Shown here: positions 62,095 through 64,000 of the stretch, one piece after another
Position numbering within the stretch: position 1 is the first letter of the stretch
How the letters are laid out: each line of letters starts with the position of its first letter
Assembly: GCF_000739555.1 (NCBI RefSeq)
Contig: NZ_BBJN01000009.1
Coordinates: 1 to 64,000 of the forward strand
Reading direction: 5' to 3'
DNA: 64,000 bases
Source of the DNA: Halolamina rubra
GTDB taxonomy: Archaea; Halobacteriota; Halobacteria; Halobacteriales; Haloferacaceae
Position numbers and translations under genes: made by a program
The notes under the pieces: model-generated
What the model was told of the DNA's origin: nothing
What the model saw: the letters and a program-made list of their open reading frames with translations, nothing else
The model's database searches: none

Positions 62095-62261
62095 ACTCGC
62101 GAGTAGCAGCGGTGGGACAAATGATTTCGGTTCGAAGCACGCCCGGCCGCGGCGCGGGGCTGGCGTCTCGCCGTGCGAGGGATTAACACCCCCGGAGTAG
62201 AGTTAAGTGCCACCGCGTCAGAGCAACTGACAGGTCGAACGATGCGCCTCCCGACATCCCT
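62095..62261. other. gap with TATA-like boxes upstream of a candidate RNA
   Basis: No reading frame is convincing. ATTAACAC (around 62182) and AGTTAAGTG (around 62204) are the best TATA-like stretches. A rightward transcript from the second would begin near 62230, just before the hairpins. Confidence 0.35.
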
Positions 62262-62417
62262 CCCGATGCTCGCAGGGCTCAATAGCTCTGCGCTCGGGTC
62301 TACCGGAGCGGACCGGTTCGGGTACGTCGGGATTATTGCATCCGTACGTCCGCAGGTTCGTTCCGGTCGGCTCGCAGCGTGAATCCGTTCACGGCGGCCC
62401 GGTCGGTGCGAACCTGC
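62262..62417 (+). ncRNA. candidate structured RNA
   Basis: Three strong stem-loops follow one another. Stem A is CCCGA (62262-62266)/TCGGG (62294-62298) enclosing GCAGGGCT (62272-62279)/AGCTCTGC (62284-62291). Stem B is ACCGG (62302-62306)/CCGGT (62313-62317). Stem C is GCAGGTTCG (62352-62360)/CGAACCTGC (62409-62417), enclosing CGTGAA (62378-62383)-TCCG-TTCACG (62388-62393). Further short hairpins continue towards 62500. I do not see the SRP RNA or RNase P RNA signatures. It could be an independent RNA or a long leader of the next gene. Confidence 0.38.
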
Positions 62418-62506
62418 ACTCTCCTGGAGCCGTCTGTTCACGCTGTGGGCCAACTCCCACGGGAGCTGGTCCCCCCAGCACGTTCGAGTCGTGGTGGGAG
62501 CATGCG

Positions 62507-62815
62507 ATGAGCACCAAAAGCTCCGACGGGTCGGCGGTTCGCCGCCAGCCCGTCGGCGTGGACTGTACAGTCAGCGTCCCGCGCAACGCCGCCGGCGACC
62601 TCGAGACCGGCGTCCGCGACCGCCTCGGCGGCGCCGACGGCGTCGACGCGGTCGAGGAGGTCGACCTGCAGGGCATCCGGCCCGGCCTGAACGACCTGAC
62701 GGTCACGGTCTCGGCGTCGCTCGTCGTCGACGACGGCGCCGAGACGGCCGCCCGGCTGGAGGACCGCTTCGGCGTCAGCGAGGTCGAGGTAGAGTTACGC
62801 ACGGGGCCGCCCTAG
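62507..62815 (+). CDS. acidic conserved haloarchaeal protein
   Basis: A 102-residue protein (VDCTVSVPRNAAGDLETGVR, then GVDAVEEVDLQGIRPGLNDL). The composition is typical of a real haloarchaeal gene, but I recognise no family. The in-frame sequence upstream to 62336 is open but overlaps the structured RNA region, so the ATG at 62507 is preferred. Its stop lies at the first unit of the tandem hairpin array. Confidence 0.6.
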   Translation: MSTKSSDGSAVRRQPVGVDCTVSVPRNAAGDLETGVRDRLGGADGVDAVEEVDLQGIRPGLNDLTVTVSASLVVDDGAETAARLEDRFGVSEVEVELRTGPP

Positions 62816-62999
62816 CCAGTCACGGCGCGTGACCTGCGGCGACCTCCGTGTCGCCGCGACGGAACTTGATGCCGTGACTGTGCGTAGCCAACAACGGCGC
62901 GTGACCAACCGCCGCCTCCGTGCGGCGGTTACGGAACCTACGCCGTGACTGTGTATAGCCAACTACGGCACGTGACCAACCGCCGCCTCAACCACTCGC
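62814..62999. repeat. tandem hairpin units (about 72 bp, 2.5 copies)
   Basis: Units start at 62814, 62886 and 62957; the third is cut short. Unit 1 has outer arms GTCACGGC (62819-62826)/GCCGTGAC (62871-62878) and an inner stem GCGGCGAC (62836-62843)/GTCGCCGC (62850-62857). Unit 2 has an inner stem AACCGCCGC (62907-62915)/GCGGCGGTT (62922-62930). The inner stems differ in sequence but both pair fully, with the same loop CTCCGT, so changes are compensatory. This implies selection on structure. Confidence 0.65.
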
Positions 63000-63133: not shown

Positions 63134-64000
63134 ATGAGCGTACTGGAGGACGCCCGCGCCGTGCTCGCGGTCGACGGGGTCTGCGACGCCTGTCTGGGCC
63201 GCGTGTTCGCCGACCGGAGCCACGGCCTCACCAACCGCGACCGGGGGCGGGCGCTGCGCACCGTCGTCGGCCTCGAGGACGACGAGCCGCCGGAGTACGT
63301 CGACCCCGACGGCTGCTGGGTCTGCGAGGGCCGCTGTGGCGAGTTCGACGAGTGGGCCGAGCGCGCCGCCGCCGCGGTCGAGGACGTGGAGTTCGAGAGC
63401 TACCAGGTCGGCACCCGCCCGCCGGCGCTGATCGAGGAGAACGAGCGCATGCTCCGGGAGGACGCCGGGCTCGACACCGACGCCGGCGAGCGGTTCAAGA
63501 GCGAGTTCAACCGCGAGGTCGGCAAGCGCGTCGGCCGGCTCACCGACACCGAGGTCGACTTCGAGCGCCCGGACGTGCAGTTCCTGCTCGACCTCGAGGA
63601 CGACGCCGTCGAGGCGCAGGTGAACTCCGCGTTCGTCTACGGCCGCTACCGGAAGCTGGAGCGGGGGATCCCGCAGACGAAGTGGCCCTGCTCGGCCTGC
63701 AACGGCAGCGGGCGACAGGGCCGGGAGCCCTGCGAGGAGTGTGACGGGCTCGGCTACCGCTACCCCGAGAGCGTCGAACAGCTCACCGCGCCCGTCGTCG
63801 AGGACGTGATGGACGGCGTGGGGGCGACGTTCCACGGCGCCGGCCGCGAGGACGTCGACGCCCGGATGCTCGGCACCGGCCGGCCGTTCGTCATCGAGGT
63901 CGAGGAGCCCCGCCGGCGCGTCGTCGACACCGACCGCCTGCAGTCGGACATCAACGCGTTCGCCGAGGGGAAAGTCGAGGTCGAGGGGCTGCGGCTCGCG
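63134..64000 (+). CDS. pus10: tRNA pseudouridine synthase Pus10 (partial)
   Basis: The gene runs off the right edge; 289 codons are visible. The N-terminal zinc/THUMP-containing part has CDACLG and CWVCEGRC. A second zinc pair (CSACNGSG and CEECDGLG) sits before YPESVEQL. The catalytic Asp lies in GREDVDARMLGTGRPF. It makes pseudouridine at tRNA positions 54/55. Part of the C-terminal catalytic domain is outside the window. Confidence 0.93.
   Translation, partial: MSVLEDARAVLAVDGVCDACLGRVFADRSHGLTNRDRGRALRTVVGLEDDEPPEYVDPDGCWVCEGRCGEFDEWAERAAAAVEDVEFESYQVGTRPPALIEENERMLREDAGLDTDAGERFKSEFNREVGKRVGRLTDTEVDFERPDVQFLLDLEDDAVEAQVNSAFVYGRYRKLERGIPQTKWPCSACNGSGRQGREPCEECDGLGYRYPESVEQLTAPVVEDVMDGVGATFHGAGREDVDARMLGTGRPFVIEVEEPRRRVVDTDRLQSDINAFAEGKVEVEGLRLA

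Follow-up and report, generated by a model that had tools for sequence, protein, structure and literature searches.

The window analysed here is a stretch of 64,000 nucleotides from Halolamina rubra (contig C63 of a 2.96-Mb genome). Toward its 3' end, an upstream gene of 102 amino acids is followed by two units of about 70 bp and a truncated third (62812–62953 onward), and both hairpins described in a first-pass annotation made from the sequence are present. The features are as follows.

62507–62815, + strand: upstream gene, 102 aa; its stop codon, TAG at 62813–62815, overlaps the 5' edge of unit 1
62812–62882, + strand: unit 1, complete, 91.0 bits; outer and inner stems both perfect
62817–62826, + strand: outer left arm of unit 1, CAGTCACGGC
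62836–62857, + strand: inner hairpin of unit 1, GCGGCGAC-CTCCGT-GTCGCCGC; stem 62836–62843 / 62850–62857, loop 62844–62849
62871–62880, + strand: outer right arm of unit 1, GCCGTGACTG; the 10-bp outer arms pair perfectly
62884–62953, + strand: unit 2, 78.3 bits; inner stem perfect, outer left arm weak
62907–62930, + strand: inner hairpin of unit 2, AACCGCCGC-CTCCGT-GCGGCGGTT; stem 62907–62915 / 62922–62930, loop 62916–62921
62954–62987 (ends approximate), + strand: third unit, truncated, left half alone; blast match at 62956–62989, 94% to unit 2
63134–64000, + strand: downstream gene, named pus10 by the first-pass annotation; codirectional and outside the element

Adjacent units had been said to keep a common architecture. 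The inner stem and the loop CTCCGT do recur in both; full outer arms are found in unit 1 alone, the left outer arm of unit 2 (CAACAACGGC) pairing only in part. Folded as slices that started about one base ahead of each unit, unit 1 had a z-score of −4.6 (0 of 200 shuffles equally stable) and unit 2 one of −2.1 (5 of 200). A plain inversion of the stem was ruled out, as the loop has the same reading direction in the two units and both arms differ. The 102-aa gene has no Pfam match; the nearest named pus10 loci are those of Halolamina pelagica (92–93%) and H. salifodinae (86%). At gathering score, Rfam recognized two tRNAs alone in the window, and its further hits all lay far below gathering. 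Separately, the segment at 62210–62480, which precedes the 102-aa gene, has a conserved counterpart in H. salifodinae (L078) and gives by eye the impression of structure; Rfam gave no match to a known non-coding RNA there.

Copy number, distribution and docking at stop codons

Does the unit occur elsewhere? A blastn search of the H. rubra genome with a 71-nt query returned 34 matches at E ≤ 10. The genome-wide search proposed in the first-pass annotation, carried out with a covariance model built from 24 units of the first loci, gave 103 matches at E ≤ 1 in the same genome, a copy number far beyond chance; the 99 matches at E ≤ 0.01 form 51 arrays of one to five units each. After a second search of the flanks, the working set for this genome (G000) held 52 arrays and 106 units, 8 antisense overlaps among 114 rows having been dropped before counting; from a second set of 79 rows, six rows of L077/L145 and nine weak, antisense or insert-bearing rows were removed. 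The dropped opposite-strand matches were weak and overlapped stronger units. Within an array, the units (median 70 bp, two nested stems) run head to tail, all pointing away from the stop codon, and they abut with a period that is mostly 70–73 nt and with no spacers. We rejected a CRISPR for this reason: the units abut and unique spacers are absent. The existence of about 50 such arrays in the genome, like the start of the array at a stop codon, is new relative to the first-pass annotation. In the draft assembly, a number of arrays are situated at contig ends or close to them (C10, C15, C23, C65 and C66), as is expected if repeats break assembly, so that the copy numbers are perhaps lower bounds.

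All seven Halolamina genomes in a search of 60 carried 17–83 matches, and the other 53 had 0–2. When 392 genomes were drawn evenly from the order and the 12 best candidates of each were scored, six had a match at E ≤ 1e-5, all of them Halolamina (1 of 95 genera). A 180-nt query had no match in plasmids or phages, and we found no description of this repeat family in the open-access papers searched. The repeat is genus-specific, dispersed and non-coding, and REP-like repeats at gene ends occur in haloarchaea. A report on REP-like palindromes in archaea has no word beginning with "halo" in its main text (PMC12306157). In another genus (G027), three degenerate related units (L057, 1429–1643) lie at the end of what seems, by eye, to be the same gene as at the Halolamina site L210, so that the origin of this site may go back beyond the genus. 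Several Halolamina genomes contain a second family of palindromes, frequently hairpin pairs edged by TGCCA and GACG, inserted within units or between the stop codon and the first unit (L281, L282, L384, L371, L311, L325, L333, L184, L246, L258 and L270).

Presence at orthologous sites is patchy. The array of the window is found in five of the seven genomes and is absent from G001 and G003, whose gene ends with TGA at the same place. Strong units occurred in two, two and four of the seven genomes at three other sites, and the stop position was unchanged at the empty sites inspected among those three. Site sharing is common: 22 of the 34 G004 arrays correspond to a G000 array.

With upstream genes called from codon-position GC and without annotation, the first unit was located within −3 to +5 of the stop codon of a same-strand upstream gene at 39 of 41 arrays in G000, 24 of 29 in G004 and 33 of 41 in G006. 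The same docking was evident in the smaller sets (G001, 10/14; G002, 2/2; G003, 2/2; G005, 3/3). Arrays called "anti" numbered 8 of 52 in G000, 5 of 34 in G004 and 5 of 46 in G006, and for three further arrays in G000 no upstream sequence was available; judged by their orthologues, some of the "anti" calls (L224, L239) seem to be wrong. At the G006 exceptions L311, L325 and L333, a second hairpin element lies between the stop codon and the unit. The spacing from stop to left arm is variable, so that all three reading phases are found. At four more arrays, of which G006 has two and G000 and G004 one each, the frame ends at a TGA within the left arm, at an offset of +18. Such a frame, entering the left arm and ending at its TGA, was noted at L234 (2001), L268 (6417), L310 (1593) and L339 (1540); where the frame runs into the left arm, the repeat provides the C-terminus and the stop.

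The upstream genes are mutually unrelated. Seven of the ten that were scanned had a Pfam match, each to a family of its own (pyrophosphatase, nitroreductase, acyl-CoA dehydrogenase, superoxide dismutase, sulfatase, rhodanese and a KH protein), and three had none. Both strands are represented among the downstream genes: 17 and 17 in G000, with 7 unclear, and 14 and 9 in G004, with 6 unclear. A stop-like trinucleotide (TAA, TAG and TGA mixed) stands at the 5' edge of 71/84 first units and 65/84 later units, the background being 20% of 11-mers within units. A simple stop-like DNA target was rejected as the explanation: a random choice among all stop-like trinucleotides on the 3' intergenic side, with 13 window genes as the control, predicts about 46% at stops versus the 63/70 seen. 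TAA was the stop at 25 of 63 arrays vs. 7 of 52 window ORFs (p 0.002), a rough comparison, given that composition served to call the background ORFs. Most puzzling among these observations is the docking, which is hard to account for by a DNA target alone; the positioning is unusually precise compared with that of known bacterial palindromic repeats. In the prokaryotic genomes considered in PMC1590033, stable stem-loops favour the 50 bp after stop codons.

Covariation, rate of change and strand symmetry

Covariation is usually read as proof of a functional RNA. That both sides of the inner stem change together, as claimed from the two units of the window, was borne out across the family: in the 24-unit alignment, 87.2% of cells were paired versus 78.6% after shuffling, and double changes occupied 61 cells versus 21.6 expected and touched all eight inner-stem pairs; these and the following pair counts come from model-fitted alignments, and the fitting favours pairing. 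We compared first units at 31 orthologous sites of G000 and G006, i.e. the G000 arrays with a pairable first unit among the 36 with an upstream match in G006. In the inner stem, 141 pairs were the same, 82 were double-changed, 11 were wobbles and 11 were broken in one genome, with 3 gaps. The corresponding numbers for the outer stem were 251 same, 22 double-changed, 6 wobble, 16 broken in one and 1 broken in both, with 14 gaps. Compensatory change is thus real and family-wide.

Divergence per base at these sites was 38% for the inner stem, 11.7% for the outer stem and 15.3% for third codon positions of the upstream genes. The inner double changes comprised 29 flips, 20 other transversions and 33 of transition type; those of the outer stem were of transition type in 19 of 22 cases. 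Because the types of change differ in this way, the outer stem looks to have evolved stepwise and the inner stem to have been rewritten in blocks at many sites.

The first-pass annotation had gone further, taking the paired changes as direct evidence of selection on pairing. As worded, this claim lacked support: the inner stem changes about 2.5 times as fast as third codon positions, and the non-Watson-Crick pairs of 175 distinct units scoring above 50 bits included A-C (99) about as often as G-U (111). Were the pairing of a sense RNA under selection, one would expect G-U to be tolerated and A-C not. In a control set of 12 distinct tRNAs, drawn from the window and from the named pus10 loci, there were 17 G-U and 0 A-C pairs, the program used itself preferring paired stems. 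Fold stability was likewise divided between the strands, the sense strand being better in 80 of the 175 units and the antisense strand in 91. Since G-U and A-C are equally common, there is no sense-strand RNA signature, which argues for a DNA-level cause. The pairing thus appears DNA-like and argues for maintenance by selection on the DNA or by template switching; the latter, as a strand-symmetric process, would yield such a pattern with no selection on RNA. Considered by itself, the inner stem leans toward G-U (29 vs. 18; 43 vs. 23 with weak units included), as do the two middle pairs (34 vs. 14), and this lean may reflect a partial RNA role.

Two further candidates were set aside. A pseudoknot between the loop TCCGT and a downstream ACGGA was unsupported, with 70.8% of cells paired and double change in one of five pairs. 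Ectopic gene conversion as the source of the inner stems was also rejected (nearest stem in the other genome, 19.7; in the own genome, 19.5; ties, 25.8). Identical inner stems at different arrays showed a modest excess in G000 (37 vs. 13.4 expected), which was less clear in G004 and G006.

Origin and maintenance of the repeat

The repeat is dispersed, docks at stop codons in fixed orientation, is patchy at orthologous sites and shows covariation, strand symmetry and fast inner-stem turnover; all of this is observed, and it probably reflects a genus-specific, REP-like, non-autonomous palindromic DNA repeat inserted at gene ends. An RNA structure, a protein-binding cruciform and a small mobile repeat had been offered as options in the first-pass annotation, and the last fits best; the circumstances that it had set against its own reading (a plain inversion, a lack of other copies, a lack of conservation) were each looked for, and none was found. 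A unit of roughly 70 bp, with an outer stem of 10 bp, an inner stem of 8 bp and, in most cases, the loop CTCCGT, would have been inserted directly after the stop codons of unrelated genes, in fixed orientation, and would then have multiplied locally into head-to-tail arrays of one to five. The mobilising enzyme would presumably be provided in trans, and the array would be transcribed as the 3' UTR of the upstream gene. A strand-symmetric process at the DNA level (template switching at replication hairpins, DNA-level selection, or both) would keep the palindromes paired, leaving the inner stem free to change fast while paired. Template switching would explain most economically why the changes are paired, strand-symmetric and multi-base; by itself it leaves the rate above third positions unaccounted for, and repeated replacement of units is possible. 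We found no donor signal for such replacement within the own genome. A Y1 transposase of the IS200 (RAYT) type (PF01797) is encoded in five of the seven genomes and is absent from the unit-bearing G001 and G002 (the latter 79% complete), and at the eight transposase loci examined, from 19 match rows, no confident unit lay alongside (best, 17.2 bits). No insertion event in progress was seen, and no target duplication was established.

How does such a repeat compare with known systems? Integron attC sites are imperfect inverted repeats with a variable inner part that lie just after or overlap stop codons in fixed orientation. The Halolamina units are alike in all of these respects, but attC sites belong to cassettes, whereas the flanks here are syntenic chromosomal genes; no attC core-site motif was recognized in the units by eye. 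REP sequences, described as GTAG- and CGTC-tagged superfamilies, resemble the Halolamina repeat as high-copy extragenic palindromes, mostly 3' of genes, with mobile-like patchiness and alternative complementary stem residues (PMC3733652). They differ in being 20–40 bp long (PMC3733652), whereas the present units have about 70 bp, two nested stems and a head-to-tail arrangement. In addition, the GTAG tag seems not to be strictly conserved in our family, a transposase link was not found and G-T pairing is not in excess; the family is also archaeal and confined to one genus. The GTAG termini of REPs often supply the stop codon of flanking ORFs (PMC3733652), whereas the orthologous empty sites here already have a stop. 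BIMEs likewise are clusters of regularly spaced REP-like palindromes, but they alternate in orientation (PMC2817692), whereas all units of an array here point the same way. Template-switch hairpins share the multi-base compensatory changes, the perfect stems and the lack of stepwise intermediates; they were shown for RNA genes (PMC8794818), whereas here they are proposed for a dispersed repeat.

Some of the evidence that sits uncomfortably with a REP-like repeat comes from the outer stems. Their outermost five pairs are 96.9% paired in first units versus 75.3% in later ones, and the left arm of the first unit pairs with later right arms at 93.1% of positions versus 84.4% for the later units' own arms. 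Two explanations present themselves: selection acts on the stop-proximal end of the array, or the left arms of later units erode as right arms are passed on by copying; the better outer stems of first units look like selection next to the stop, which counts against the REP-like reading. They would be expected, as would the exact position and fixed orientation, of a functional 3' UTR element, in which a post-stop hairpin fixes the mRNA 3' end (by termination or by shielding it from 3'-5' exonucleases) and the covariation results from selection for RNA pairing. A precedent exists in Haloferax, where one coding-region hairpin terminated 59% of reporter transcripts (PMC7237163). Haloferax intergenic termini, however, are marked by T-stretches (PMC7237163), and TTTT followed 0/84 arrays within 15 nt and 10/84 within 60 nt; for want of a T-run after the hairpin, we rejected an intrinsic terminator. 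The G-U excess of tRNA stems is absent as well, the same genes lack the array in sister species, and 386 of the 392 genomes of the order have no match. We thus consider the RNA element unlikely.

Strand-symmetric pairing, together with a conserved loop and outer arms around a variable inner stem, would also suit a DNA dyad bound by a candidate protein (a nucleoid protein, topoisomerase or recombinase), with selection for DNA shape or a cruciform maintaining the pairing. Binding sites usually keep their stem sequence, however, whereas the inner stem is the fastest-changing part that we measured, and such a dyad leaves the placement at stop codons unaccounted for; we regard it as improbable. Shared sites between species and the degenerate units at seemingly the same gene in another genus are what one would expect if a single ancient terminator per gene had been duplicated in tandem, the likeness between sites stemming from shared ancestry of function or from convergence, with no mobility. 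The close similarity of units at unrelated genes within one genome and the empty sites of sister species speak against this proposal so strongly that we give it very little credence.

Returning to the REP-like repeat, we put forward a more specific version tentatively, and with considerable doubt: a mobile DNA repeat that docks on functional stop codons rather than on mere stop-like trinucleotides, its insertion or survival being coupled to translation termination or the mRNA end, and whose self-correcting hairpin has an inner stem that is ever rewritten yet perfectly paired. The docking itself makes one ask by what route a DNA repeat arrives at the ends of reading frames. The family also constitutes a natural test set, in that its covariation is strong yet strand-symmetric and selection and template switching are therefore separable; it offers 34 to 52 mapped arrays in each of three genomes, with sites common across species.
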